Source: a virus. Taken from it: a DNA stretch of 20,817 nucleotides. This document shows, one piece after another, positions 3,001 to 19,704 of this stretch. Within the stretch, counting starts at the first letter, position 1; every line of letters starts with the position of its first letter. The stretch spans positions 1-20,817 of the IMG/VR virus record IMGVR_UViG_3300045120_000256; one strand, written 5' to 3'. The translations under genes and the position numbers were made by a program. The notes beneath the pieces are model-generated. The model did not search any database and was not told where the DNA came from. It saw nothing but the letters and a program-made list of their open reading frames with translations.

Positions 3001-6000
3001 TGCGGATTACTCTGCACCTCCCCCAGGTTGCGCGGCTCTGGCCCGGTGGGCCTTCCGGTGCCAGGCGGCTCCTGGGTGTTCGCTCGCAGCAGACCTTCCA
3101 GGTCCTGGCGCGTGGCACCGCCCGGAGCGCGGAATCCCTCCGCTGCTCGCGCCGCTTCGGGCGCCAAGCGCGCACCCAGGCCGCGGCCCGCGATATGTCC
3201 GCCGATCAGACCAGCGGACGCCCCCAGGCCGATGTTACGAAGACGAACGTCTAGGGGAGCGTCTTCGGGGGTGGCGGCGTTGCCCGCGGCTCCGCCGACA
3301 GCGCCTCCGGCGAGGCTGATGTTGAAGGGGGAGTAGGACTCGCCGCGCTGGCGGGCGGAGGGATTGAAGAAGCGTCCAACTGACTCGGGGGCGCGGAATC
3401 CTGCGGGGAGGTCGGAAGCGGGGACGCCTGCGGCGTCCACTCCTGCGCCGCCAGGGAGACCACCCCCTGATTCTGATACGCCGCGCTGCTCGCTGGCCGA
3501 GTACCGCTGACCATACTGGCTAAGAGCGGACTGCGACTCCGCGGGGCTGACGGATCGTACGTGACCATTGAGTTCTCCAATGTGGGCGCCGGCTCGTTGG
3601 GCTGCCTCAGCGACCGCCTGCTCGTAGTCGGCGTTCGCGCGGGGCAGCGCGTTAACCCCTATTGTACCCCCGTTCAACTCCTGATACCCGATACCTGACG
3701 CCTTCAAGTTGTCTACTAGAGCCGCCCTACTCTCGGGGGGTACGTCGTAAATTTCCCACCCTACGTGCTCGGTCGATTCGGGACGGTAGACGTACAGCGT
3801 GGCGGGCGCCGCGTCCGGTCCCGACGCCTCGTGGATCTTCGCCGCGACATAGCGCAGCGTGTCCATGTTGCCGCCAGGCACCAACACCTGATCGCCCTGC
3901 ACCTCGTGCGGCACGCCGCGTAACTCGGCAAACTGCCGCGTCTCAGGGTCGTACCCAAGCGCCTCCTGCGCGTGCTGCGGTATCTCCGCCTGCGCGACGC
4001 CTGCCTGGCGCTCTGCTTGACCAGCGCGGCCTAGCGTGCTCTCAGGCACCACCCCGCTGGTCCGCGGCGCCTTACCGCCGATCGCCGTCGCGCCCTTCAG
4101 CGCCTTGCCCTTGCCCGGGTAATACAGGTAGCTGGAGTCAGCGATGTCCGGGCGGCTCGCGCCACGCTCCAGCAGCGGGCGCAGCTTGTCTAGCTCGGAC
4201 GAGACGCCTCGATCGGCAGCGACCTGCTCCCACGTTCCGGTCGGGTTGGCGTACGCGCCCTCCGCTTTGGCCTGATCGAGCACGTCGCGCAGCGTCGCGC
4301 GGCCATTGCCGAAGTCCTTGACGATCGCCTTGAGCCTCGAAGAGGCTACCTTGCTCGCGGCAAAGTCCTTGGCCCCCTTGATGGCGAACCACATCGCCGC
4401 CTGCGCCTGGTGCGGCACCTGCCCGGTCTCGCCTGCGAGATGGTCTACGACCGTCCGCATCGCCTGAAACGCCTGGTCGCTGCTGGCTGTCCGATTCGGG
4501 AAACGATAGTTGAAGACCTGCGCCACCCACGTATCCATCGTGCTGTTCGGATCGAACCGATTCAGCAGCGCCGACAGGATGTTGGACGCATAGCTGCTGG
4601 TCTTGGCGTTGGTCGCGACCTTGACCTCGCCGGTCGTGTATAGCTGCGCGACCTTTTTGAACTGGTCCGCGTTCATCTTCCACTTCGCGCCGGTCGTGCC
4701 AGTGCTCGTCACCCGCGGGTTGGCCGCGATCCACTGCTTGATGTTCTGGACCGTGAACGGCGTGTCGGTCTCTGCGAACTCACGCGCCATCCGCATCAGG
4801 CCGATCGTGTACTGGAGGTTTTCAGTCGGCGGCGTCTGCTGAGACGTGATGCCGAACAGCGTGCGGAACTCGTTGATGTTCCCCTCACCGACCACGCGCG
4901 ACACGTTCTGCGCGAACTTGGAGTACCACTGCGACTGATCCATGCCCACGTCCTGGGCGTAGCGCAGGTCGTCCAGATGCGGGGTAATGCCTTCCTGCCA
5001 CTTGGGGACCGCAGGTCCCTCTTTCACGCTCGGGCGCGGCAGGCTCGGCAAGGCACCGAGCGTCGGCCCGTCAATGTGCGCCACACCCGTAGGGTCTGTC
5101 TCCGCAGCACGGCGCAGACTGTCAGAGATGGTGGCGGGCGTCGATCCTGGCTCGTAGGCGTAGCGCGGCGTACCGAGTCCACCTTCGGTAATGGGCGTAC
5201 GCGCCTCCGTAGGCGTCGAGACCGGTGGCGGCGCCTCTGGCCGTTCAGGACCACGCGGTACCCCCAGGGCTGCGCCGACCTGCACCTCACCGCGCTGGCG
5301 CGTGCGTAGCGCGGCCTCTATCTCGGGCGCGCGATCGATGATCGCTTGTCCGATCTTGCGTAGCTGCGCCGCGACCGCGGGCGCGGAAGCGTCCATGATG
5401 CCGCCGAGACCAGCACCAGTCCACAGCGCCTCACCGACAGACTGCGGCGTGGCACCGGTCTGATCGACCGCGAACAGCGCGTTCTGGAGACCGCCCACGA
5501 TACCGCCGCGCGCCAGCTTCTCGAAGACCTGCGGCAGCGCCTGGGCGATCTTGAAGCCGACCTCGTTCGGAATTCCTCGAGCGACAAGCTCAGGAATACC
5601 AGCGCGCAGCGCACCGCTCGCGGCGAGCTCGCCACCGAGACCGCCGAGCTTGGTGGTCGGACCAGCGGCCAGCCACGTCTCGGGCGCCGCGATCTGCTGC
5701 ACGATCATGCTCGTCAGACCGCCCAGGACGAGCGTGTTCTTGAGCGGGTTGGCCTGCTCGATCATGTCGTTCCTGGCCGAGCCAGCAGCCTGGAACCAAT
5801 CCTTGACCGCGCCTAGCTGCTCCTGCGGAGACAGGTTGCCGATCGACTGGCCGCGCACCATCTTGCCGAGCGGGGTATCCGCCGCGGGCATCGCCAGCAT
5901 CGGCGGATGGATGTCCTCTGGATGACTGGCGTCTGGCACGTACGGCTTTGTCACGTCGGGCAGCGCCGCGCCGAGCGCGTTCGCGCCCTCGCCCAGGGCG

Positions 6001-7736
6001 TCGGTTGCCCTACGGGCTGTAGTACCGATGGCAGAGGCAGCGCCTCCCAAGAACTCAGCGGGACCCGGCCCGACGCCAACCTGAGTGGTCGATCGACCGC
6101 CCGTCGGCATGACCGTCTGATTGGCGGTGTTGTAGTAGGTCGATACCGAAGGCGCCGCGGGAGGCTCCGCCCCCAGGTTGGTGACCTTCATAGGCTGCGA
6201 CGCGGTCCGCAGGTCTACGACACCTGGCTCGGACGACGGAGGCAGCGCAGCGCGCGTAGCGCCTGCAGCGCCCCCGTTAGCCTGCCCAATCCCGCCCTGA
6301 AGCGAAGTCAGCAGCGCCTGAGCGTTGAAGTCCTGCCCGAGTCCACCTTCAGAGCCAACACCGTTCGAGATACCGTGGCCGATGCCTATGTGCAGATGCG
6401 TCTCGCCCTGCCCACCCTTGTAGGCGTTGCCTGAGTTACCGACCGCGCCGATCTGCTCTCCGGTCTCGACCCGCTGCCCCGCCTTCAGACCAGTTGGTTG
6501 GTCGAAGTGGGCGTAGTAGTAATCCAACCCGTCGTCACCGTGAATCAGGACCGCGTTGCCACCGACCGTATGCGAGCCGTTGTCGGTAAAGACCTCCTGC
6601 ACCGTACCGCTCCGCATGTTCAGCACAGGCGTGCCGCGCGGTGCCATCAGATCCGAACCACCTCGACTGTGGTAGGTCGCGTCCGGCGCGTTACTCGACT
6701 TGACCGTTAGCGGAAATATCCGCCCATCGGCGTCTGGCGTATTAGCGATCAGCGTGCCCGGAGTCTGCTGTGGCGGGGAAGGCGCGTGCGGATCGCTGCC
6801 CGCTATCGCGCGACCAGCCTGGTCCAGCAGCCCGGTGGCGCGGTCTACGAGACCAGCACTCGGAGCGGGAGGCAGATGCTTGTTGATCGAGTTGACCTGG
6901 TCTACCCACCCCTGCGCGGGATAGCCCGGCTCATCGACCACGTAACCAGCGCGGCGCAGGTCCTCTACGAACTGCTCAGGGTTGGCGCGGTCGGCCCACG
7001 CCTGCTTGTACCGCGGAGCCTGACTGATCAGGTCTACAAACGCCTGGAAGCTCTGCTCTGGCGAGTCGTAGCTCGCCCACCTGGACGCTTGGCCGGACGG
7101 CCCCTGGATCGAGAACAGGTTGTTCTGCTGCTTCGCCGTGTCGCTCTGACCCCATCCCGTCTCGTTGGCCGCGATCGCGATCATGACGTTGGGATCGATA
7201 CCGGTCCTGGCCGACACCCTGGCAGCGAGCGGCGCCAGCGATTCGATGAACGCGGACTGCCCCTGCCCGACGCGAGTTGGAGCGACCGACTCGGGCGGGG
7301 CAGAAGCAATCGCGGTGACCGCAGCAGGACCCGTAGCCGTGTCGGAAGATGGAGGTCCTCCCAACACGTCACCCTGCTGCGCGGTAGGCGCTGCCGATGC
7401 GCCCAGGGTCTGGAGCGTGCCGCCCGATGGCGGCGCCGCCGTAGGCTGCTGCGCGATCAGACCGTCAACGTGCTGCTGGATGCGCGACGCCACGTCACCG
7501 ATCGGCTGGAGGGTCTGCTGCGCGGCCTGCTGCGTCTGCTGGCTCAGGTCATCGACGTGTTGCTGGATGCGCGCAGCGATCCCCGCGGGATCTTGTGCAG
7601 CTTGCTGCACCTGTTGAACGGGCTGGCTTACCGCCTGGAGAGCTTGCTGCGTCGATTGCTGCAGCGACTTGACGTGCTCGTTGATACGGTCCTCGACCGA
7701 CTTCCGCCAGTCATCGAGCAGCAGCGTGCCAGGCAT
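1..7736 (-). CDS. Giant virion/ejection protein with glucosaminidase and M23 peptidase domains (3' end outside window)
   Basis: I translated this frame from the ATG at 7736 to the window edge and found no stop, giving at least 2578 residues. Residues 17-93 are Gln-rich repeats. Residues about 165-290 resemble FlgJ-type glucosaminidases: NETGWGQ with candidate catalytic E192, then NNLFSI and a YDSPEQSFQAF motif. Residues about 339-452 form an M23 endopeptidase with candidate zinc ligands H356 and D362, H410 in YYYAHF, and H447/H449 in THLHIG. The rest has a folded-looking region (919-1200), another near 1265-1375, Pro/Gly-rich linkers, coiled-coil-like stretches (about 1990-2180) and a C-terminal region with SSPITQLVNIGGN (from 2192), seen in my experience in large polyvalent phage proteins. 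Gly-rich hydrophobic segments lie near 667-690, 1500-1522 and 2446-2466. It probably degrades peptidoglycan and helps DNA entry. The start overlaps the upstream stop (TAATG) behind a GGGGG ribosome site. A tape-measure role is less likely, because there is no long regular helix pattern. Confidence 0.85.
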   Translation of the reverse strand, partial: MPGTLLLDDWRKSVEDRINEHVKSLQQSTQQALQAVSQPVQQVQQAAQDPAGIAARIQQHVDDLSQQTQQAAQQTLQPIGDVASRIQQHVDGLIAQQPTAAPPSGGTLQTLGASAAPTAQQGDVLGGPPSSDTATGPAAVTAIASAPPESVAPTRVGQGQSAFIESLAPLAARVSARTGIDPNVMIAIAANETGWGQSDTAKQQNNLFSIQGPSGQASRWASYDSPEQSFQAFVDLISQAPRYKQAWADRANPEQFVEDLRRAGYVVDEPGYPAQGWVDQVNSINKHLPPAPSAGLVDRATGLLDQAGRAIAGSDPHAPSPPQQTPGTLIANTPDADGRIFPLTVKSSNAPDATYHSRGGSDLMAPRGTPVLNMRSGTVQEVFTDNGSHTVGGNAVLIHGDDGLDYYYAHFDQPTGLKAGQRVETGEQIGAVGNSGNAYKGGQGETHLHIGIGHGISNGVGSEGGLGQDFNAQALLTSLQGGIGQANGGAAGATRAALPPSSEPGVVDLRTASQPMKVTNLGAEPPAAPSVSTYYNTANQTVMPTGGRSTTQVGVGPGPAEFLGGAASAIGTTARRATDALGEGANALGAALPDVTKPYVPDASHPEDIHPPMLAMPAADTPLGKMVRGQSIGNLSPQEQLGAVKDWFQAAGSARNDMIEQANPLKNTLVLGGLTSMIVQQIAAPETWLAAGPTTKLGGLGGELAASGALRAGIPELVARGIPNEVGFKIAQALPQVFEKLARGGIVGGLQNALFAVDQTGATPQSVGEALWTGAGLGGIMDASAPAVAAQLRKIGQAIIDRAPEIEAALRTRQRGEVQVGAALGVPRGPERPEAPPPVSTPTEARTPITEGGLGTPRYAYEPGSTPATISDSLRRAAETDPTGVAHIDGPTLGALPSLPRPSVKEGPAVPKWQEGITPHLDDLRYAQDVGMDQSQWYSKFAQNVSRVVGEGNINEFRTLFGITSQQTPPTENLQYTIGLMRMAREFAETDTPFTVQNIKQWIAANPRVTSTGTTGAKWKMNADQFKKVAQLYTTGEVKVATNAKTSSYASNILSALLNRFDPNSTMDTWVAQVFNYRFPNRTASSDQAFQAMRTVVDHLAGETGQVPHQAQAAMWFAIKGAKDFAASKVASSRLKAIVKDFGNGRATLRDVLDQAKAEGAYANPTGTWEQVAADRGVSSELDKLRPLLERGASRPDIADSSYLYYPGKGKALKGATAIGGKAPRTSGVVPESTLGRAGQAERQAGVAQAEIPQHAQEALGYDPETRQFAELRGVPHEVQGDQVLVPGGNMDTLRYVAAKIHEASGPDAAPATLYVYRPESTEHVGWEIYDVPPESRAALVDNLKASGIGYQELNGGTIGVNALPRANADYEQAVAEAAQRAGAHIGELNGHVRSVSPAESQSALSQYGQRYSASEQRGVSESGGGLPGGAGVDAAGVPASDLPAGFRAPESVGRFFNPSARQRGESYSPFNISLAGGAVGGAAGNAATPEDAPLDVRLRNIGLGASAGLIGGHIAGRGLGARLAPEAARAAEGFRAPGGATRQDLEGLLRANTQEPPGTGRPTGPEPRNLGEVQSNPHLLREATPDETPMTLDERLAHQGSLEDRFQANQDRLASIDEQLRNPGSKPERPPWAAGWSNDELVKIAQAHGESAYAPLWWEKAGLDVGSGEVRAISEGGFRAADRGREPTPAELRREAASLQQDQSHIQDAIDQQYTAPEGAQFVKPEERAAAALPFSEGGGMDEGAKLAQQTVATKGGTLTSDVNQVTGEAGGITGRGIVNPAEVVHEPPSEETRALMPNLNAIGKDMPEIAAQIQKSVEDNPALWEHYKQGRISFDSLKNDLARRVGMTAEEWKALPVGKALNDREMVALQAAMIESQHAQTTLAQDILDRGGVDALTPEQLAYALSQLTGAQRLAAVAKGAGSTVARSLNARKISFDKTLASDITAQNARKAAARIKAQAEKVATRAGTLIEKAAATDKERATAVARARSEGAPKNIIDQIAAAYDELDRYNAMSLHEKGAVFDKLKAARDAARERRKNAVRGAPEELLSALKQELRAEQDNFAKRKSTWETMAFKDEKAFENMMAKRTAFRGGLYIEQQRKSAQLALRNADREMTRAFDAEVARRGKQGEKAQKLLESMGGQEVTKDLLKNYLAALSDPDPMVAAKFLQSTAVMSAWKRATVLRLAGLVSSPITQLVNIGGNTAGAIVEVPTRALVVGIDGLRAAVTGGERQAYAGELIPMLKAYGPGALGQWDNAYRIMKSGLTPEQLADPTKITGRFSPSEKLNFAVEAPLRLLGAEDALFRGAALNAHGMRVASRQAIREGFKGGMVEERAADIMSHLEDYPELAKEATDAAARQVFQEKRTGLGGAKLPDSGEFLVKQAVPFYRTPLNITAQGGAMSPLGFSGAMQSAMKARSMPLGTAAERAAQGRETLLAEERAARAVIGSLLLGGGLALGAAGHLTGAYPLDPKEASTLPQGWRPWSLRATSPVDGNTYYFPLQNMGPMGFPMAMAAIMTDPIHRGNTFLSPEEQLNSVTAIGRYVLDNTFLQGMSDVIDTLHDPKTHAQKFGESLAA
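7458..7688 (-). repeat. Gln-rich protein repeats at the amino end of the giant virion protein
   Basis: The motif RI(N/Q)(E/Q)HV(K/D)xL occurs at residues 17, 56 and 85. Between the copies lie runs rich in QQ, QQA and QQT. The DNA of the second and third copies is nearly identical (plus-strand word TGCTGGATGCGCG). This suggests recent duplication of a helical, coiled-coil-like unit, perhaps for oligomerisation. Confidence 0.7.
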
Positions 7737-8266
7737 TACATGCCCCCGCTAATCGGCTGGCCGTTCGGCCCGTAGATGACCGGCATAGCAGGCTGCGCCG
7801 ACGGCGGAGGAGGTAGCTGTGGGACGACCGGCATTGCTGGAGCCGTTGGCGGCATGGCCTGTGGCGCCGTTGGCGCTGCCTGGGGGGCCATCCCAATCCC
7901 GGGCTGCATCGCCGGGTGCAGCGCCTCTGGCGCCACAGGACCAGGCTCGGGCAGGACCACGCCGAGACGGTCGGTCACCTTCTCGAACTGCAGCGGGTCG
8001 CGCCGAGCTTCAGCTTGCAGGAACTCGCGATCGTTGTTCGCGTATGCCTGGCGGTAGATGTCGTCCAGGCGCGCGTTGGGCACACCAACCACGTCGGGGT
8101 GGTCCTTGGCGTCACCGAAGACCATCCGAGCGATGTGCGGCGCATCGCGCTCTATCTCGGTCGTAATCTCCGACTGCAGGCGGACCGTCTCGTTCTTCTT
8201 GTTCTGCGGTGGTCGCGCGAACTTGGGGTCGTTCTCATCGACCGGTTCAGGCGGGCGGGGCAGCAC
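7736..8266 (-). CDS. Proline-rich protein between portal and giant virion protein
   Basis: This 176-residue protein starts at GTG 8266 and overlaps the portal stop by 20 nt. A GGTGG ribosome site lies inside the portal end. Residues 1-105 are charged and mostly helical-looking (for example the stretch starting NARLDDIYRQAY). Residues from about 106 to the end are a Pro/Ala/Met/Gln tail with little predicted structure. The gene couples directly into the giant virion gene through TAATG. Its position after the portal would fit a small head, scaffold or portal-associated protein, but nothing in the sequence proves this. I do not recognise the family. Confidence 0.8.
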   Translation of the reverse strand: MLPRPPEPVDENDPKFARPPQNKKNETVRLQSEITTEIERDAPHIARMVFGDAKDHPDVVGVPNARLDDIYRQAYANNDREFLQAEARRDPLQFEKVTDRLGVVLPEPGPVAPEALHPAMQPGIGMAPQAAPTAPQAMPPTAPAMPVVPQLPPPPSAQPAMPVIYGPNGQPISGGM

Positions 8267-10235
8267 CGTTCACCACCTGGCCGTACGCGGGCGGGTTCAC
8301 CCCTGCCCCATTCGGCGCCGCCGCGAGAGCCGCCAGATCTGGCACTCCGCCCATGCCGGGACCGCCGCCCTCGAAGACACCGGGCTGTGGTTGCTGGCCC
8401 GCAGGTCCGCCACCAGGCGGCAGACCAGCCTGCGGTAGCTGGCCCTCAAGAGCGCGTTGCTCCATCTCCTGGGCTTTCTGAAGCAGGTCGCCCCGACCAG
8501 CCAGCATGAACACCTCTGCCTGAAGCATCTTCTTGTATGCAGGCGAAGCTCGGATTTCGTCACGCGCGATCGACCGCCGAATCTCGTCCGGGTTGTCGCC
8601 CAGGAACGTGATTGCCTCGTCCTTGCCGTACGTGCCAGCGGCAAGCCGCTCGTGCGCGTACCGCGCTTGAATCATTTCGTCCGTCGGCAATTGCGCCTGG
8701 ACTTCCCATTTCACGTGCATCGGGCGCTCCAGGTCCTTCGGCGCAAAGCCAATGAACTCGGTCGCGGCCTGCTCCGAGCCGACCTCCGTGCCGCCGTAGA
8801 ACACCCACACCTTCTCGGAGATCTTGGGGTGCTCGCGGACCATGCTCCACAGCTTGTCGGTCTGCCCTCTCAGCAGCGCCTCCAGGCCGTGACGGATGGG
8901 ACCGACGCGCGTCCTGGTGAAGCTCAGGATCTGGCTGATCGCGAAGCCGGCACCTTCCATGCCCGACAGGGTGGTCACCCTGGGTGACTCCAGATCGCGG
9001 ATGGCCTGGTCGATCAGGCCCATGTGCTTCTCCAACGTCGCGGCGTCGGCATACTCGATACGCTGGAGCTGGCGTCCGGGCGGCAGGTTGAGGATCTCGC
9101 CAGGGTGCAAGGCCAGGTCGGTCTGCTCCCTCGGTAATCCGTCCCCGGTCCCAACCGCCGCCGCAGGACTCTCGCCGTACGTCACCAGCGGACTCATCAG
9201 GTCGCGAGCCACATATTGAGCATGCATGGCGCGCAGGTACTGGCGGTACTTGACCAGCCACAGCTTGGTCCGACCGATGCCCCAACCCACCTTCCGATCG
9301 CGCATCCAGGACATCGTCAGACCCGGCGCGTAGTCGTACGGCACGCCGCACGGATACTGGTGCCTGAACTGCTTCACGATCTGGCCGGTGGGCTGGTTGC
9401 GGAAGTTGCGGCCCGAAACCATGTACGTGACCCACGTCTTGTCCCAATGCTCGATGAACTGCACGGTCGTGAGCGGGCTGCGCTCACCTCCTGACGTGGA
9501 GTCGCTCCCTACCGTCGCCACGCCGAGCTCCGCGGGGACAATCTCGCCGTCACGGTCTCTGCCCAGGCGCCACTTCCTGAAGGCGGACCGCAGCGTCATG
9601 TCGGTCACCTCCAGGACTTCCTCCAGCTTGCCGCCCGACCGCTGCGGGTAGATCGTCCTGGGGTCCACGTAACTCCAGACGAAGGGTGGACCGAGCCGCT
9701 TCTTGGCCTCTTCGGTCAGACGGTCGTACTGCGACCACGCCTCTTTACCCTCGCCGCTCCGCGGCGATGGGATGGCATCCCGCTCAGACCACAGGTCCGC
9801 GGCCCACAGCAGTTTCGCCCACCCGCCGCCGTCATTCAGGCACGAGTCGGTGACCTGCACCATCGTGTCAGCCCCGGGTTCGCGCGTGCCGCACTGCCAC
9901 AGTACTTCCTCGGTCCAGTGCTCCAGCTTCGACGCGATGGTCTGCGCCGTGTCGCCCTCACCGCCGACGATGGAAAGCTTCGGTCTCTCCAGCGTGAGGA
10001 TGGCAGTCTGCTGGAACGCCTCTTCGGTGATGTCCGGGTCGCGCGGATCGACGTGCACCATGATGTAGCGGCTATCCGCTTCCTGCATGGCCGGCACCTT
10101 CATCTCGCGCACGGACCGCATCTCATCGATGTCCAGGTCCTGTTGCTTGAACTGGTCGCCTAGCTCGACCTGCAGATCGAGCACGTACCGGCTATCAGGC
10201 GCGCCTAGCTCACCCTGGCTACGGTCAATCGCCAT
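8247..10235 (-). CDS. Phage portal protein (probable)
   Basis: The protein has 662 residues, a size usual for podovirus-type portals. It lies directly downstream of the large terminase block, the classic place for a portal. Through it the genome is packaged and later ejected, as a dodecamer at one capsid vertex. The amino part is acidic and helical. The middle has many Trp and Arg residues, with a segment from about residue 300 (YDYAPGLTMSW, RDRKVGWGIGRTK) followed by a helical stretch (LWLVKYRQYLRAMHAQYVARD) of the kind seen in portal stems. The carboxyl tail is Gly/Pro-rich. The ATG at 10235 has no good ribosome site. Translation may be coupled to the small frame ending 24 nt upstream, which is in the same frame. 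The call rests on size and context more than on a single diagnostic motif. Confidence 0.75.
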   Translation of the reverse strand: MAIDRSQGELGAPDSRYVLDLQVELGDQFKQQDLDIDEMRSVREMKVPAMQEADSRYIMVHVDPRDPDITEEAFQQTAILTLERPKLSIVGGEGDTAQTIASKLEHWTEEVLWQCGTREPGADTMVQVTDSCLNDGGGWAKLLWAADLWSERDAIPSPRSGEGKEAWSQYDRLTEEAKKRLGPPFVWSYVDPRTIYPQRSGGKLEEVLEVTDMTLRSAFRKWRLGRDRDGEIVPAELGVATVGSDSTSGGERSPLTTVQFIEHWDKTWVTYMVSGRNFRNQPTGQIVKQFRHQYPCGVPYDYAPGLTMSWMRDRKVGWGIGRTKLWLVKYRQYLRAMHAQYVARDLMSPLVTYGESPAAAVGTGDGLPREQTDLALHPGEILNLPPGRQLQRIEYADAATLEKHMGLIDQAIRDLESPRVTTLSGMEGAGFAISQILSFTRTRVGPIRHGLEALLRGQTDKLWSMVREHPKISEKVWVFYGGTEVGSEQAATEFIGFAPKDLERPMHVKWEVQAQLPTDEMIQARYAHERLAAGTYGKDEAITFLGDNPDEIRRSIARDEIRASPAYKKMLQAEVFMLAGRGDLLQKAQEMEQRALEGQLPQAGLPPGGGPAGQQPQPGVFEGGGPGMGGVPDLAALAAAPNGAGVNPPAYGQVVNGAAPPA

Positions 10236-12629: not shown

Positions 12630-13658
12630 TTACGCCAGGTTCAAGGCAGGTTGAACCCAGGTTGGCGCCGTAGGCGCTTCGCGCCCTCTCTGGAGCTTGA
12701 TCTTGTTGGGACGGGCGCCGTCCTGGCAGACATGGTGGTGACCGTACGACCTGCCGCATTCCAGGCAACTGCCGTGCGCTTTGGTGCAGGCAAAGTTGCC
12801 GTTCTGGACCGCCTCCGCTATGGCGTCTGCGCGAAACAACAGCCCTGCCAGGTCGTCGTTCCACGCCCGTTGATTGGCCCACGTCCGATCGAAGACCTGC
12901 ACGGTCCCGTTCGACCTGCTCAAGACCACATACCGAAACGTGGGAATGACATCGTAGGCACGGCGGTACGCCCAGGTATACAGCATGGGCTGCCACATTT
13001 CTTTCTCGGCTCGCGCTTGCGACCAGCTACCGAGCGTGGTCTTGAAGTCAAAGATGACCGCCCCATGCTGCGACCAGGGAGGAGACCACAGATCGACCGC
13101 TCCGATCGTCGGCATGCCCCAATCGTAGGCGCTCGAAGAGCGCACGCTCGGCGTTGCCGTAGGCAAAGTAAACCAGCGTTCCGGCTCGGACTGCGCGTCA
13201 GCGTTGAGCTTCATGTTCGAGACCAGGTCCAGCATCCGCAGCCCCTCGTTGTACAGACTGGCCGTCGCCATCACCGGCTGCGGCAGTTCTGCCAGGCGTG
13301 CCGCCATCAGGTCGAACTGCTCCGTATAGACCGCTCTCCCGATCTTGTACGAGTCCGCAGACTCGTCAACGTAGCCGCTCGCTCCGCTCGCGAAGTGGTC
13401 TTCGCCCCCGTCGGGGGTAAGACACACTCCCCGGTGCCCCTGGTGCATGGCCTCCAGAGCAATGTGCACGGCACTGCCAAAAAGCATCGGCAGGCTTGGG
13501 TCTGTCGCTATGCCATCAACATACCGGTCCTTGTAAAGCTGCGGACACTGCTCGAACAGCATGAACCTGCTCGCAGACCAGTGCTCTTCTCCCCGACCGG
13601 GACGGGTGCTAATTCTTGGCACCGTACCAGGCCAGTAGCTGCCGAGCTTGTTCGTCAT
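12630..13658 (-). CDS. Cas4/RecB-type PD-(D/E)XK exonuclease with possible Fe-S cluster
   Basis: This 342-residue protein has the ordered motifs of the family. WSASRFMLFEQCPQLY opens the fold (residues 27-42), then FGSAVHIALE with H65, GAVD with D189, DFKTT with D204 and K206, and Q223-x3-Y227. One Cys (C38) near the amino end plus C291, C298, C301 and C311 near the carboxyl end resemble the split four-Cys Fe-S site of Cas4 and AddB. It probably processes DNA ends in replication or recombination beside the polymerase. The annotated ATG overlaps the upstream gene by 50 nt. A GTG at 13622 would cut this to 14 nt and still keep all motifs, so the start is open. Confidence 0.88.
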   Translation of the reverse strand: MTNKLGSYWPGTVPRISTRPGRGEEHWSASRFMLFEQCPQLYKDRYVDGIATDPSLPMLFGSAVHIALEAMHQGHRGVCLTPDGGEDHFASGASGYVDESADSYKIGRAVYTEQFDLMAARLAELPQPVMATASLYNEGLRMLDLVSNMKLNADAQSEPERWFTLPTATPSVRSSSAYDWGMPTIGAVDLWSPPWSQHGAVIFDFKTTLGSWSQARAEKEMWQPMLYTWAYRRAYDVIPTFRYVVLSRSNGTVQVFDRTWANQRAWNDDLAGLLFRADAIAEAVQNGNFACTKAHGSCLECGRSYGHHHVCQDGARPNKIKLQRGREAPTAPTWVQPALNLA

Positions 13659-13857
13659 TGGATGACCCGAACTCTTCGGTCAGCCAATGCTCCTGCCGGT
13701 ACGTGCTCGGCCAGTAGTCATGCACGACCAGGCTCAGCACCCGGTCAGATGGCGGCTCGACCTGCTTCGGCTCACGGTAATGATCCAGCTTCTCACTGCC
13801 GGACACCCACCCCCGCGGCGTGAGATGCCACGTCCACCACTCGTTACTGGCCGACAT
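13609..13857 (-). CDS. Trp-rich hypothetical protein coupled to the replicase
   Basis: This 82-residue protein has no recognised motif. Its ATG overlaps the stop of the replicase gene (TGATG), so translation is coupled. It is rich in aromatic residues (NEWWTWHLTPRGW near the start, later HDYWPSTYRQEHW) and acidic toward the end (TEEFGSSNDEQARQLL). It has no signal peptide or membrane segment. Its place between the replicase and the Cas4-like nuclease suggests a small replication accessory, but nothing in the sequence supports a specific role. Confidence 0.75.
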   Translation of the reverse strand: MSASNEWWTWHLTPRGWVSGSEKLDHYREPKQVEPPSDRVLSLVVHDYWPSTYRQEHWLTEEFGSSNDEQARQLLAWYGAKN

Positions 13858-16800
13858 CAGCCCACCACCTTCCGTCCAAGCTTCTTGTCCGCATCGGCGT
13901 AGCTCGGCACGATCAACGCCTCGACCCCGACCATCACACCCTTGACCAGCGGCTGCATTGCGTCCTTCAAACCCTGCTTCAGCCAGACCCCGACCGTCTC
14001 CGCTTCAGCCTCGTCACACTCCGCAATAAGCTCGTCGTGGACCATCATCACCAGTCGGGCAGATGGTACCGCATCCCTGCTGCTATACAGGCCCTGCAGA
14101 GCTAGCTTGAAGCCATGTGCTTCGACCATCTGGACCGGCGTGTTGGCTTTGATGTTCTTCGAGAAGATTGCACTGCGGCGCCGTCCCGAACCCGACGGAT
14201 CGAAAATCGTTTCCTCGACCCCCCAATCGCTCAGGTCACGGTGCCACGACCGGATGCCACGGTACGTCCGCATGAACGTCTCGCGATAGCGGTACGCCTC
14301 GTTCAGCGTCATGAAGATGCCATGCTTCCGCTGCTCCCTACGGAACGTCGCCGCCCCGGCGCCGAACAAGAACCCAAAGTTGACCGCCTTGGCCTCGTCC
14401 CTGGTGCAGCCCAACGCATCCGCAGTCCGCTGATGGACCTCGCCCCCAGGCTCGTTCAAGACCCGAATCATCTCCGTATCCTGCGCGTGCCAGGCCGCGA
14501 TGACGATCTGTAGCTGACTGTAGTCAGCCCGCACAAAGACCCGTCCAGGCACGGGTCGGATCGCCGCTCGCGCCAGCGTCTCCCGCGGCAGGTTCTGGAG
14601 ATTAGGGTCTGAGCAGCTTGTACGGCCCGTCTGCGCGCCGATCGGATTGAACGACGCATAGATCCGCCCATCGTCTGCGATGCGGCTCTGCGCCTTCCTG
14701 AGCAGCCCCAGGCACGCGCCAGCAGATCGATAGTCCAGCAGCGCGTCGATGAGCGGATCTTCCGACTCGGCATCCATCAACGCCCCCTCACCGGTCGATT
14801 CAAGCTCCAGCCCACGCCCCTGCAGGATCGGCAGCACCTGGATGGGTGACCGCCAGTTGACGCCCGTCACCCCCGCGGTCGTGTTCAAAATCTCGAGCTT
14901 GGCCGCAAGCTCCGCCTCCTGCTGGCGGATCGCCTCGACCATCACCGCACGATCGACGGGCGCTCCCGCGGATGCAAGCCACCACGTCGCCGCCTGGACA
15001 TCACGTTCCAGTGCCAGGCACGCCAGCAGGTCGGATGACCGACTGTCCTGCGCCAACTTGACCCGCAGCGCCTCGCCTGCTGCCTGCGTCACTCTGGCGT
15101 CCTCCGCGGCATAGGCCAGCTTGGCGTGCCGCAGCACTGGCATATCCCATCCACGTTTCTGCTCAGTCTTGGCAATGTGCTGCGCCAGATGGCGCTTGGC
15201 GATGCCCTGCAGGCGATAGTCCGTGTGCTCTTCTTTCGATTCGAGGACCATCGCCGCGGTCCGCACGTCGTAAATCCGATCAGGATCGATCGTCAGATCG
15301 CGCTGCGCCAGGAAGCCCAGGTCGAACAGATACGTGTGCATCTCGACCTGCGCGACCGTGTCCAGGTAGGTCTGCAGCGGCGCCAGGTCGGTGACCGCCC
15401 AGGTATCGATCACGACATGCGTCTGCCCGTCGCTCAGGTTGATCGTCCGTAGCTGGTCATGGTGCGCCGACAGGCCGGTCGTCTCCGTGTCCAGCCCGAC
15501 CGACACCAGCGACAGGTTGGCGAGCGCCTCGACCAGTCCCTGATCGGTCAGCACCGTGGTGTAGGTGATGTTTGGCGCGGCCAGATCGGCAGCTTCAAGC
15601 TTGGCGAGTTCTGCCGCAGCCTTCTTTTCCGCTGCCTTAGCGACCGCCTCAGGAGTTTTCTCTCTCGCGCGCGGGGGGACACCACCCCGAGAAGAAACTG
15701 GAACTACTTCGGCATCGGGCTCCGTAGGAGCCTGCGCGCGCGCGTACGCGAGGGGAGTTTCCTCTCCGGTTGGGGGAACCGCCGGAGAGGAAACTACCCA
15801 ATAGCCTTTAGGCGGTCGCCCGGTCTTGGATGGACGGTCGCCCACGCCGAGCCGCCCCTCCTCAAGCAGCGCGCTGATCGCCTGCTTTGTACTGGCAATG
15901 CCGAGTTTGGCACCCTCCTTGATTTCGCCCTCGATCTTGCTGCCCGACAGGTCGTCTGTCAGGTCGACCGCGCCCTGCTCGGTCAACCACTGCACGACCT
16001 TCTCCCGCGGTCGCGTCAGCTTGACCTCGGTCACCGTGCCACCAACCACGATGTACCGCTTCTCATCGACTAGCTCGACCAGCATCGTGTCTGGCGTGGC
16101 TGATCCAAACCGCCCGCTGCTTTCAATCTCGCGGTGATTCTTGAACTCCTTCCCCTTCAACTTGCGAATGCTGATCAGGATGTCGGCGTCACCCGCGTAC
16201 TGTGACGAGCCGCGGCCCGCCACGCTCACGTCGCGAATCTCGACCCCCTCATGGCGCAGGATGATGACCCCCAGGCCACGATCTGCCGCCCGCACCAGCG
16301 GCTCCATCGTCTTCCTGGCGACACCCGCCTTGTTCTCGTCGTCACCGTAGACGCGCGCCAGCTTGTCGAGCGTGTCCACCACCAGCACCTGAATGTCCTC
16401 CGCCAGGCACATCTCCACCGCGCCGTCGATGGTCTGCTCGAAGCTCTCCGAGCGCGGGATATCGGCCCGTGATTGGTAGCGCAGCCCATGCTGACCTGCG
16501 GTCCACTCATAGCCGGTGCGGTCTAGCACCTGCCGAAACACGTTCTTGCGCTCTTCGGTCAGGTACGCCACCCGTATCGGCCCATTGACCGGCAGACCGC
16601 AGAATTCACCGCCCTCTTCCAGCGCCGTGACGAGCCCGTTGACGGTCCAGGTCGTCTTGCCGACCTTGGTCTGCGCGGTCACCAGGGTGACAATCTTCGG
16701 CCCGACCCAACCAGGGATGTACCAGACCTGCTCGTCCTTTTCGTCGTCGGATTCTTCCCCAGCCCACGTCCACCTCTCGCGCGCGCTCGCGGGCGCATGC

Positions 16801-17771
16801 GCGGGCGCAGTCCCGGAGGGACCAGGCCGAGTTTCTTCTCCGGTTGGGCCCCCTATAAACGAGCGAGAAGAAACTCGACCAGTCAGGCTAATTTGGGCCG
16901 CTGGTCTGCCGTACCGCCGAGCAATGCCGCGGTACTGTCGCGCGGCGTCGGCGGGCTTGCGACGGCTGTACTTGAACCAGCCCAGGCTTTCGTCCCGCTC
17001 AGCCAGGATGCTGGCGATACCCTCGACATCCTGGTAGCCCGCGTCGCACAGCATCTTGGCTATCTCGACCAGGCCGTTGCTGCGGTCATCCGCATCGACC
17101 AGCCCGTTCCACTTCGCTAGCTGGTCGACGGTCAAATCGATCGGCGGCTCATCCGTCTCCGCGGGTACGACCTCGTCTTCGTCCACGATCTCCGCCGTTG
17201 TCGGCGCCACAACCTCGACCACCCACTCCGGGCGCAGCGCCGTGTCGCGCCACTCGATCCAGCGATAGGCGTTGCCAGAGGCATGCACCGAAGGCGGCGC
17301 CACGGCATAGCCGTCACTCAGGATGTCAAAGCGACCGCGCCGCGCGATCCGCCGTCGCGGTAGCCCGCCACGGTCGTACAGCCAGTGCTCGTGCCCCTCA
17401 CCGCCGCCACTGGCGAAGTGCATGGTCGGCGGCAGACCGCGCGCCTTGAACTCCGCCCAATACTCGATCGAGTCCGGTGCCACATCGACCAGCCCCGCGG
17501 CGCCGAGCGCCAGCCCGATGTTCGCATCAGGCCAAAGCGTCCACCAGGTAATGACCAGCTTCGGATCAGTGGTTGCATCCCGGTGCGCGTGCGGCACCAA
17601 GTTGCCGATGACATGCTTCGCTGGCTTGCACTTCTTGCTGGTCTTGTACTCGTCTGGACACGCGCACACGCCGTCTCGAATCGGGTACAGCGGCAGCACC
17701 GGCCAGCCCATGCTGACATACACCAGTGCCGCGTCCAGCAGCGCCCCTGCTGGTGCTTGTGTACTATCCAC
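13857..17771 (-). CDS. Fused replicase: PrimPol, helicase ATPase, 3'-5' exonuclease and family A DNA polymerase
   Basis: This is a 1304-residue chain from GTG 17771 with good site AAAGGA 6 nt upstream. (1) Residues about 8-175: bifunctional primase-polymerase, with CACP and KKC before KHV, WWTLWPDANIGLALG, motif I D96-V-A98, GGGEGHEHW (122-130), D149 and VAPPSVHASG. (2) About 215-290: primase C-terminal-like helical region. (3) About 350-580: RecA/RepA-like ATPase with TKVGKTT (K372), VVDTLDK (D466) and LRHEG (505-509). (4) About 580-662: winged-helix-like region. (5) About 735-905: DEDD exonuclease with D761, E763, D817, Y887 and D891. (6) About 905-1304: polymerase with TGRTSCSDPNLQNLP, motif A D1083-YSQLQ, motif B R1124/K1128/F1132, and motif C H1245-D1246-E1247. 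It could prime, unwind, copy and proofread. The linkers carry palindromic elements. Confidence 0.95.
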   Translation of the reverse strand: MDSTQAPAGALLDAALVYVSMGWPVLPLYPIRDGVCACPDEYKTSKKCKPAKHVIGNLVPHAHRDATTDPKLVITWWTLWPDANIGLALGAAGLVDVAPDSIEYWAEFKARGLPPTMHFASGGGEGHEHWLYDRGGLPRRRIARRGRFDILSDGYAVAPPSVHASGNAYRWIEWRDTALRPEWVVEVVAPTTAEIVDEDEVVPAETDEPPIDLTVDQLAKWNGLVDADDRSNGLVEIAKMLCDAGYQDVEGIASILAERDESLGWFKYSRRKPADAARQYRGIARRYGRPAAQISLTGRVSSRSFIGGPTGEETRPGPSGTAPAHAPASARERWTWAGEESDDEKDEQVWYIPGWVGPKIVTLVTAQTKVGKTTWTVNGLVTALEEGGEFCGLPVNGPIRVAYLTEERKNVFRQVLDRTGYEWTAGQHGLRYQSRADIPRSESFEQTIDGAVEMCLAEDIQVLVVDTLDKLARVYGDDENKAGVARKTMEPLVRAADRGLGVIILRHEGVEIRDVSVAGRGSSQYAGDADILISIRKLKGKEFKNHREIESSGRFGSATPDTMLVELVDEKRYIVVGGTVTEVKLTRPREKVVQWLTEQGAVDLTDDLSGSKIEGEIKEGAKLGIASTKQAISALLEEGRLGVGDRPSKTGRPPKGYWVVSSPAVPPTGEETPLAYARAQAPTEPDAEVVPVSSRGGVPPRAREKTPEAVAKAAEKKAAAELAKLEAADLAAPNITYTTVLTDQGLVEALANLSLVSVGLDTETTGLSAHHDQLRTINLSDGQTHVVIDTWAVTDLAPLQTYLDTVAQVEMHTYLFDLGFLAQRDLTIDPDRIYDVRTAAMVLESKEEHTDYRLQGIAKRHLAQHIAKTEQKRGWDMPVLRHAKLAYAAEDARVTQAAGEALRVKLAQDSRSSDLLACLALERDVQAATWWLASAGAPVDRAVMVEAIRQQEAELAAKLEILNTTAGVTGVNWRSPIQVLPILQGRGLELESTGEGALMDAESEDPLIDALLDYRSAGACLGLLRKAQSRIADDGRIYASFNPIGAQTGRTSCSDPNLQNLPRETLARAAIRPVPGRVFVRADYSQLQIVIAAWHAQDTEMIRVLNEPGGEVHQRTADALGCTRDEAKAVNFGFLFGAGAATFRREQRKHGIFMTLNEAYRYRETFMRTYRGIRSWHRDLSDWGVEETIFDPSGSGRRRSAIFSKNIKANTPVQMVEAHGFKLALQGLYSSRDAVPSARLVMMVHDELIAECDEAEAETVGVWLKQGLKDAMQPLVKGVMVGVEALIVPSYADADKKLGRKVVG
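15654..15699 (-). repeat. Imperfect palindromic linker element 3 in the replicase gene
   Basis: Plus strand AGTTTTCTCTCTCG (15654-15667) and CGAGAAGAAACT (15688-15699) are imperfect inverted repeats around a GC-rich core. It encodes part of the linker starting VSSRGGVPPRAREK (from about residue 692), just before the exonuclease module. Confidence 0.5.
15756..15795 (-). repeat. Perfect palindromic linker element 1 in the replicase gene
   Basis: AGTTTCCTCTCCGG (15756-15769) and CCGGAGAGGAAACT (15782-15795) are perfect 14-nt inverted repeats with a 12-nt loop. It encodes SSPAVPPTGEETP (residues about 661-673), right after the winged-helix module. Its left arm and following TTGGG nearly match element 2. 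Confidence 0.8.
16828..16877 (-). repeat. Perfect palindromic linker element 2 in the replicase gene
   Basis: CGAGTTTCTTCTC (16828-16840) and GAGAAGAAACTCG (16865-16877) are perfect 13-nt inverted repeats with a 24-nt loop. It encodes SSRSFIGGPTGEETR (residues about 301-315), between the primase and ATPase modules. Confidence 0.8.
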
Positions 17772-17785: not shown

Positions 17786-17828
17786 AAAAACGCCAGCCCC
17801 CACCCGCAAAAGTGAGGCTGGCGTTTTT
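17786..17828 (-). terminator. Bidirectional terminator-like hairpin or attenuator before the replicase
   Basis: AAAAACGCCAGCC (17786-17798) and GGCTGGCGTTTTT (17816-17828) are perfect 13-nt inverted repeats with a 17-nt loop. Both strands end in a T-run. On the minus strand it follows the VRR-NUC gene and ends 14 nt before the replicase GTG. No convincing promoter fits between them, so replicase expression from upstream needs read-through. Confidence 0.8.
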
Positions 17829-17845: not shown

Positions 17846-18232
17846 CTACGTTACACCCCTGAAAGTCGTAACAATGGTCTCTTCGTCACCCGGTTTCCAG
17901 ACGCCGACATCGGCACCGGCGGCAGCCAATCGAGCATGCCAACCCTTCTGCTCCTGGGTCAGATAGCTGCCCTTCTTTTTCAGTTCGCGATAGAGAATCC
18001 GCTCACGAACGAACACCCAATCCGGGAAGCCGTTCGAGTCGTAGTGGCTGTCGCCCAGGCCAAGCATGTGGACACCGGTCACGGCGCCTTTGCTGAAGCT
18101 GATGTGGAAGCCACACCAGCCCCAAAACCGTGCCACCTTCGTGACCCACGCCTGGAAGCGCCGCTCGTCTGGAGAAACCAGCGCGATGACCGGTGGCGGA
18201 CGCCTGCGGCGCGGTTTAGCGGGCGCGACCAT
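17846..18232 (-). CDS. VRR-NUC domain nuclease
   Basis: This 128-residue protein has a basic amino end (residues 6-14). The nuclease core follows, with GFPDWVFV (D71), RELKKKG (E83 and K85), the TQEQ motif (Q95), then a helix, AGADVGVWKPGD and a final strand. This is the small stand-alone VRR-NUC arrangement of the PD-(D/E)XK superfamily, which cuts branched DNA such as Holliday junctions or flaps. It lies just upstream of the replicase and probably resolves replication or recombination intermediates before packaging. ATG 18232 overlaps the end of a 53-residue frame by 17 nt and has only a weak ribosome site. A strong hairpin follows its stop. Confidence 0.88.
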   Translation of the reverse strand: MVAPAKPRRRRPPPVIALVSPDERRFQAWVTKVARFWGWCGFHISFSKGAVTGVHMLGLGDSHYDSNGFPDWVFVRERILYRELKKKGSYLTQEQKGWHARLAAAGADVGVWKPGDEETIVTTFRGVT

Positions 18233-18880: not shown

Positions 18881-19324
18881 TTAGATCTGCCTAAGCGCCG
18901 CATACAACGCTTCTCGGGTGGCGGGTGTCCATCCGTCCTCTTCGATCCAGCGTGCCGCCGCTTCGACCACCCGTAGCCGCTCGTTCTCAGTTAGCGCCCG
19001 ATCCTGGTCCTGGCGGATTGCTTTCAGCGTGTCCATCACAGCGTCGTACCGTGCCGCTTCAGCGTCGCGCTCACCCTTGAGTTGCTCGACTTCGGCGCGC
19101 AGTTCGCGTATCCGGGCGAGCAGGGTTGAGCGTTCATTGTCGAACCCAGCGCGCAGTTCGTCGCGCTCGGACTCAACAGCGTGCAGAAGCTTCTCTGTTC
19201 CGGCGATAGCAGCCACGGCGGTCTCGCGGTGCGCCTTCATCTTGCGCTCGATCTTCTCGACTTCGGCGCGCAGTTCGTCGCGCTCGGCCAGGAGTCCTAC
19301 TGGATCGTTGAATGGGTTGGTCAT
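18881..19324 (-). CDS. Coiled-coil protein with repeated RDELRAE units
   Basis: The start at ATG 19324 (147 residues) overlaps the stop of the Rpf-like gene by 4 nt (ATGA) and follows a GGTGG sequence; an earlier ATG at 19348 is less likely. Most of the protein is heptad-like: ERDELRAEV, ERDELRAGF and RELRAEVEQLKGERD recur. These units are also repeated in the DNA, with a 22-nt plus-strand word (ending GGCGCGCAGTTCG) near 19087 and 19259. The carboxyl end has a small separate unit (WIEEDGWTPATREALYAAL). It is probably an elongated oligomer of unknown role. Confidence 0.75.
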   Translation of the reverse strand: MTNPFNDPVGLLAERDELRAEVEKIERKMKAHRETAVAAIAGTEKLLHAVESERDELRAGFDNERSTLLARIRELRAEVEQLKGERDAEAARYDAVMDTLKAIRQDQDRALTENERLRVVEAAARWIEEDGWTPATREALYAALRQI

Positions 19325-19704
19325 ATCCGCCACCGACAGACCGGCCACGGTGCCATACCGCGCACCGCGCGGAGTCGTTCCGCAACCGCAATCTGCTGCG
19401 TACGACTAGCCAGGTGCGCCGAGCTCGCGTACGCGCCGCCACCGTTTCCCAACCATGTCTGCTGGTCGAACTGCAGTCCGCCGCGGTAACGACCTCCAGC
19501 CGACACGGCAGACCAATTCCCACCGGACTCACACCGAGCCAGCCTGTCCCACATGCCCACAGGAGCCACGTACGGCACGACCGGCGCTTCGACCTCTACC
19601 AGGACCTCCGCATCAGCAACCTGCTCAGAATCGCTTCCTGGAGCGGTCTCGCTGGATACCAGGACCTGCGCCAGCAACAGCGCACCAGCCAGCACGACCG
19701 CCAC
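19321..19704 (-). CDS. Rpf-like transglycosylase, exported or membrane-anchored
   Basis: This 127-residue protein starts at GTG 19704, which overlaps the upstream stop (TAGTG). Residues 2-17 are hydrophobic (AVVLAGALLLAQVLV), a signal peptide or anchor. An acidic low-complexity linker follows (to about 50), then a full resuscitation-promoting-factor domain: WDRLARCESGGNW with catalytic-position E59, GGLQFDQQTW, ASRTQQIAVAERL and WPVCRW. The two Cys (58 and the near-terminal one) should form the usual disulfide. Such enzymes cut the glycan strands of actinobacterial peptidoglycan. It sits in the early-type operon, not beside lysis genes. A role in superinfection, wall remodelling or lysis is open. 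Confidence 0.92.
   Translation of the reverse strand: MAVVLAGALLLAQVLVSSETAPGSDSEQVADAEVLVEVEAPVVPYVAPVGMWDRLARCESGGNWSAVSAGGRYRGGLQFDQQTWLGNGGGAYASSAHLASRTQQIAVAERLRAVRGMAPWPVCRWRI

Follow-up and report, generated by a model that had tools for sequence, protein, structure and literature searches.

The locus, its neighbours, and its relatives

The window analysed here is the whole of one IMG/VR virus record (IMGVR_UViG_3300045120_000256; 20,817 bases, classed as linear), a single metagenomic contig from a phage that has never been cultured. The following genes and features lie on its minus strand:

3-7736, minus strand: frame of at least 2578 codons with N-terminal glucosaminidase and M23 peptidase domains (homologues at 29–57% in G001 and G002, two related records)
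8247-10235, minus strand: portal-position protein (71–78% in G001 and G002)
12630-13658, minus strand: PD-(D/E)XK exonuclease, downstream of the replicase gene (PF12705, 9e-14; phrog_69)
13857-17771, minus strand: single-chain replicase gene, 1304 amino acids (open frame, Pfam matches, eight full-length single-frame homologues)
17786-17828, minus strand: hairpin rich in G+C with a T run behind it, shortly before the replicase start (RNA folding)
17846-18232, minus strand: VRR-NUC/Holliday-junction-resolvase-like endonuclease, upstream of the replicase gene (phrog_93, 6e-9)
19321-19704, minus strand: Rpf-like transglycosylase, a small early-region protein (PF06737, 2.5e-27)

The replicase gene is one open frame on the minus strand, running from 17771 to 13857, and the initial annotation, which had described a 1304-residue frame with no internal stop, was right on this point. 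The start codon at 17771 is GTG and is preceded by the purine-rich sequence GGAAAGGAAA. The chain comprises a primase slot, a helicase slot, an exonuclease, and a family A DNA polymerase; a profile search of each segment, which had been proposed as a check on this four-module order, matched Prim-Pol, AAA_25, 3'-5' exonuclease, and DNA_pol_A in that order, each above its curated Pfam cut-off. The fused four-module protein is real as to its domains and its frame.

A scan of IMG/VR with an alignment of the exonuclease–polymerase part (exo-PolA) returned eleven contigs at 64–73% identity. The whole fusion is present in a single frame of 1315–1348 codons in eight of these (L009, L088, L089, L090, L091, L094, L096, and L097), and it is cut by contig ends in the remaining three, so that the search of viral sequences for the full order, which the initial annotation had called for, yielded eight intact copies. 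The fusion-bearing relatives share a gene order of methyltransferase, VRR-NUC, replicase, PD-(D/E)XK exonuclease, small and large terminase, and portal. Two of the records, G001 (41,101 bases) and G002 (41,315 bases), are circular assemblies whose ends overlap exactly, over 123 and 82 bases. As the window is one metagenomic contig of a phage never cultured, the fusion might be an artefact in which assembly joined separate genes in frame or sequencing errors mask stops; with eight other intact single-frame copies whose linker sequences differ, and two records that close into circles, this explanation is vanishingly improbable. A polymerase gene merely adjacent to a separate Prim-Pol gene was also considered and rejected.

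Among 80 viral PolA loci that were scanned, the fusion occurs in two family members only, and the other frames with a PolA match span 869 codons or fewer; none of 50,697 deposited phage records matches over 80% of the replicase length. A scan of cellular and prophage genomes with the exo-PolA alignment gave no close relative and two distant PolAs (25–29%). Single-sequence scans of IMG/VR with the whole protein, its N-terminal half, or the window helicase module returned no relatives, and a scan with a helicase-module alignment returned no members beyond those already known.

For the portal-position protein, which is conserved within the family, neither Pfam nor PHROG gave a match, nor did tblastn against the same 50,697 phage records, and the phage group, as judged from sequence, is far from the deposited phages. 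The frame at 3-7736 probably encodes a virion protein of very large size that carries cell-wall hydrolases. A small protein with an Rpf-like transglycosylase domain also lies at L115:17120-17605, and the window protein has no counterpart in G001. The phage had been presumed to be an actinophage; the Rpf-like protein appears compatible with an actinobacterial host, but among cultured phages the terminase comes closest, at about 30%, to haloarchaeal, Thermus, and acidobacterial ones.

RNA folding predicts a G+C-rich hairpin a short way before the replicase start in every one of the seven members examined (the window, L089 at about 4671-4717, L088, L091, L009, L094, and L096), with differing stem sequences. 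The hairpin and T run of the window resemble an intrinsic terminator, and may mark the end of the VRR-NUC transcript or attenuate the replicase.

Protein and profile searches of seven related records found one PolA match and one AAA_25 match in each, no DnaB_C, and no Prim-Pol outside the fusion. Among the early genes of G001, family scans recovered a methyltransferase, nucleases, and terminase, and no second primase, helicase, or polymerase, although such searches could miss a highly divergent gene for another replication protein. The gene is quite likely the core replicase of this group of tailed phages of about 41 kb. A protein of 214–243 amino acids is encoded upstream of the replicase region in two relatives (L119:1305-2036; L008:7-651); it has no family match in the copy tested, and the acidic DGDEVPF that terminates the L008 copy resembles the tail of a single-strand-binding protein, to which the protein might, as a guess, be likened.

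Modules and active sites of the chain

The modules and motifs of the chain, all on the minus strand, are as follows:

17223-17729, minus strand: Prim-Pol (AEP) domain, residues 15–183 (PF09250, 4e-23; 83 bits against a cut-off of 22.8)
17469-17492, minus strand: Prim-Pol motif I, residues 94–101, with LVDVAPDS replacing hhDxD (alignments with 15 outside Prim-Pols)
16902-17129, minus strand: putative PriCT-1-like helical bundle, residues 215–290 (aligns with the PriCT_1 region of L005 and L007)
16242-16778, minus strand: RecA-fold AAA_25/RepA-type helicase domain, residues 332–510 (PF13481, 3e-15; Foldseek; profile match to L005)
15792-16019, minus strand: possible winged-helix-like region, residues 585–660 (weak MarR_2 match in L008; aligned to the C-terminal end of L005)
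15567-15779, minus strand: variable linker, residues 665–735 (alignment, identity profiles)
15063-15554, minus strand: 3'-5' proofreading exonuclease of DEDDy type, residues 740–903 (PF01612, 3.7e-19; 70 bits against 23.6)
13953-14927, minus strand: family A DNA polymerase domain, residues 949–1273 (PF00476, 2.6e-42; 145 bits against 34.3)
14502-14525, minus strand: polymerase motif A, DYSQLQIV, with Gln at the steric-gate Glu position (family-wide, in 0 of 81 other viral PolAs)
14361-14402, minus strand: polymerase motif B, RDEAKAVNFGFLFG, with Phe at the conserved Tyr position (alignment with 81 other viral PolAs)

The exonuclease motifs are LDTETTGL, HTYLFDL, and YAAEDARV, and the full DEDDy set is present, in agreement with the DEDD residues noted initially. 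The polymerase retains its catalytic residues, with the motif A Asp, the motif C Asp-Glu, and the motif B Arg, Lys, and Phe; motifs A, B, and C had all been recognized in the initial annotation, but Gln takes the place of the steric-gate Glu, and Phe that of Tyr. The exonuclease–polymerase part does not reach the NCBIfam equivalog cut-offs. The steric-gate Glu is Glu710 in E. coli Pol I (PMC13228545). Every family member has DYSQLQ in motif A and GFLFG in motif B, while 77 of the 81 other viral PolAs aligned have Glu/Tyr and none has Gln/Phe. The motif B Tyr, replaced by Phe here, presumably corresponds to Tyr766, and a 2013 study in Biochemistry (cited in PMC5872031) reportedly treated Glu710 and Tyr766 together. 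The missing Glu and Tyr tune sugar selection and are not required for membership of family A. Because Glu to Gln and Tyr to Phe change together, the paired Gln/Phe suggests a coupled change in sugar selection.

The helicase module carries Walker A at residues 365–375 and Walker B at residues 463–468, so that the Walker A/B ATPase read initially stands, with AAA_25 above its cut-off. A model of the N-terminal half, of moderate confidence (600 residues, pLDDT 64), gave Foldseek matches to KaiC and RAD51 for the middle module, and the RecA-fold ATPase with Walker A and B that characterizes RepA/SF4-type ring helicases is thus present. A PDB search with the helicase-module profile returned nothing. 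F13 GP46, a related AAA_25/RepA-type phage protein, has been measured to be a 5'-3' DNA helicase (PMC8965321). The window helicase module is only 27–32% identical to that of any other member. For the region behind it, which had been called winged-helix-like, a relative (L008) gives a weak MarR_2 match (E = 0.07), but the window itself gives no significant profile match. The linker at residues 665–735 ends in a conserved Lys/Ala/Glu-rich stretch.

The Prim-Pol domain departs from the canonical active site. Motif I of AEPs has the form hhDhD/E and shares with motif III the binding of the catalytic metals (PMC4538821). In the window, the second catalytic Asp of motif I is replaced by Ala, and the hhDhD/E pattern is lost; the motif II His is kept (GHEHW, with a two-residue insertion) and motif III reads FDILSDG, preserving the sxH and hD patterns. 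The PrimPol motifs reported initially are therefore present in the PF09250 match, motif II His, and motif III, but not in motif I. In alignments, DxD is absent from all five Prim-Pol-type members, each of which has LVDVAPDS, and present in all 15 outside Prim-Pols, which were drawn from phages, plasmids, and other viral contigs; an alignment scan for Prim-Pol relatives found the altered motif I to be confined to the fusion family. Because the active site is non-canonical, priming by the window Prim-Pol cannot be assumed. Helices are predicted at residues 215–287 of the chain, and PriCT_1 itself gives no Pfam match in it. It is the Pfam match that supports the Prim-Pol fold, since the N-half model confirmed a RecA/KaiC fold in the middle only; no AEP structure is among the top 50 PDB matches of that model (Foldseek), and a single-sequence PDB search with the Prim-Pol domain returned nothing.

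Exchange in the primase and helicase slots

The primase slot is filled by Prim-Pol in the window, L009, L091, L094, and L096, and by a VapE-type AEP in L088, L089, L090, and L097, whose first 300 residues are unrelated by sequence to Prim-Pol. This alternative N-terminal domain matches the PHROG primase/helicase families phrog_9765 (1e-15) and phrog_256 (1e-9), as well as the N-terminal domain of VapE-type phage proteins, and its invariant residues (D71xD73, T95-H96, R106, D137, and R145) form the set expected of an AEP. A PDB search with its profile gave chance matches only, and an AlphaFold2 model of the domain was set aside (pLDDT 45, two-sequence alignment). The one primase slot thus accommodates two different AEPs.

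These observations bear on the possibility that the Prim-Pol-like domain has lost catalysis in the window and in its four look-alikes and serves in DNA binding or origin recognition, while host DnaG or the polymerase domain primes. The loss of DxD in five of five members, against none of the 15 outside proteins, favours such a loss of activity, as does PolpTN2, in which changing the motif I DID to LIL, and so both of its Asp residues, abolishes activity (PMC5862659), given that motifs I and III hold the metals (PMC4538821). The replacement motif LVDVAPDS, however, is strictly conserved, and the domain keeps its motif III and the His of motif II; D100, four residues past D96, could, speculatively, stand in for the missing motif I ligand. 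Moreover, an intact AEP occupies the slot in sister phages, from which it can be argued that the slot still matters, and non-homologous displacement of this kind is evidence of functional equivalence (PMC2579912). A dead domain is plausible but less likely than not, and the preferred reading is that the N-terminal slot would prime in both its Prim-Pol and its VapE-type version.

Comparison of close relatives points to exchange along the chain. The L091 and L009 proteins are about 96–100% identical at residues 51–300, about 40–68% at about residues 350–750, and 90–100% in the exonuclease and polymerase, and DNA identity steps in the same way. L089 and L088 follow the same three-step pattern (86–98%, 22–62%, and 72–98%). 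Chimeric assembly is disfavoured because the L089 combination recurs in L090 and the L088 combination in L097, each from a second metagenome. The polymerase of the window groups with the VapE-type members (72%). The exchanged helicase cassette has its right-hand edge in the linker at residues 665–735. Since the primase and helicase slots have been exchanged in frame between relatives, the chain is, on these alignments, a three-slot cassette that recombines in or near its linkers.

The N-terminal half has a free-standing counterpart, a Prim-Pol–PriCT_1–AAA_25 protein in the spring phages L005 and L007, whose profile match spans the helicase and C-terminal part. The nearest plasmid relatives of exo-PolA are on cyanobacterial plasmids (28–32%), directly behind an AEP–DnaB_C gene; these abutting AEP(TOTE/LigD-like)–DnaB_C and exo-PolA genes (L002:8468-13734; L003:2706-7547) are an apparent two-gene counterpart of the fusion. 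The chain presumably arose by fusion of an AEP–helicase gene to an adjacent exo-PolA gene.

Known one-chain replicases and the proposed working

The initial annotation was not aware of this exact four-activity order in a presumed actinophage. The idea itself has precedents: PREX and GP55 are one-chain replicases, and pRN1 and NrS-1 have AEP–helicase chains. The primase and helicase of PREX are of the bacterial/T7 type. In Plasmodium, PREX joins primase, helicase, exonuclease, and PolA in one polypeptide (PMC9631997, PMC8113025), in the same order of activities as the window chain, and, of the solved structures, its polymerase is one of the closest in sequence to that of the window. The window chain, however, gives Pfam matches to Prim-Pol and AAA_25 in place of the TOPRIM primase and DnaB-like helicase of PREX, and is phage-encoded, whereas the gene for PREX lies in the nucleus of a eukaryote. 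GP55 of lactococcal phage 1706 is a helicase–AEP–exonuclease/PolB protein for which all four activities have been measured, and is nearly the only replication protein of its phage, a further likeness to the window chain; both are phage chains of about 1300 amino acids with helicase, AEP, exonuclease, and polymerase (PMC12205980). The order in GP55 is SF3 helicase, AEP, an alpha-helical domain, and family B polymerase, in contrast to the window chain, with its central AAA_25 and C-terminal DNA_pol_A. Filing the window chain under PREX or GP55 was considered and rejected.

Proteins of the pRN1 ORF904 and NrS-1 types have a canonical motif I. Like the window protein, they join an AEP to a helical bundle and then to a ring helicase on a single chain, but they have other helicase families and neither an exonuclease nor a separate polymerase domain (PMC4538821, PMC7102993). 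The spring-phage "RepA" proteins of L005 and L007 hold the three modules of the window N-terminal half but are only 630–634 amino acids long, with no fused polymerase and an intact DxD, and the L002 and L003 plasmids have the same activities in the same order but in two adjacent genes with a TOTE/LigD-like AEP and a DnaB-type helicase. PolA of the Pyrovirus/3173 type is likewise a phage exo-PolA with an N-terminal helicase-like part, DUF927, but of a different family and with no AEP (PMC10423840). In the open-access full text that was searched, there is no description of an AEP, a RepA-type helicase, an exonuclease, and PolA on one chain, nor of in-frame module swapping within such a chain.

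In the proposed working, the primer would be made by the N-terminal AEP with its helical PriCT-like bundle, the RepA/SF4-type RecA-fold ring would unwind DNA in front, and copying and proofreading would fall to the DEDDy exonuclease and family A polymerase at the C-terminal end, with flexible linkers tethering all parts. We infer that the chain acts as an oligomer of uncleaved copies, which would be a hexamer should the helicase resemble RepA in its behaviour; a hexameric ring would bring six primases and six polymerases to one fork. By comparison, GP55 is mainly a dimer, with primase and polymerase able to act in trans (PMC12205980).

The fixed 1:1 ratio of modules proposed initially would hold only for a chain that escapes cleavage, and PREX is cleaved into separate enzymes after import (PMC9631997). 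The window chain might similarly be a polyprotein that a protease cuts into primase, helicase, and polymerase, the fusion coordinating expression only; its linkers are long, variable, and Pro/Ala/Glu-rich in the alignment, and module exchange at linkers suits semi-independent parts. However, family scans identified no phage protease next to the replicase gene, the import-linked processing of PREX is absent from the bacterial cytosol, GP55 works as an intact chain (PMC12205980), and the Lys/Ala/Glu-rich stretch ahead of the exonuclease is conserved. Processing of this kind is rather unlikely, and an uncleaved chain is the preferred reading.

The altered sites may also be read jointly, although we regard this as distinctly doubtful: priming in cis would have reshaped the polymerase, with either a non-canonical D96/D100 site or lost AEP catalysis, the Gln/Phe gate would accept ribonucleotide or mixed primers handed over within the ring, and free swapping of the primase and helicase modules would serve, for example, in matching origins or evading host defences.

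Both the Gln/Phe sugar gate and the changed motif I of the primase provide precise residues to test, and the L091/L009 and L089/L088 pairs, in which nearly identical polymerases are combined with swapped modules, offer a direct test of how far a replicase depends on specific contacts between modules. Such chains are also candidates for primer-free DNA amplification. For the biology of these phages, the family shows that a complete chain of primase, helicase, proofreading exonuclease, and polymerase, in which the polymerase is of family A and the primase of archaeal type, exists and is clade-stable, apart from PREX and GP55.
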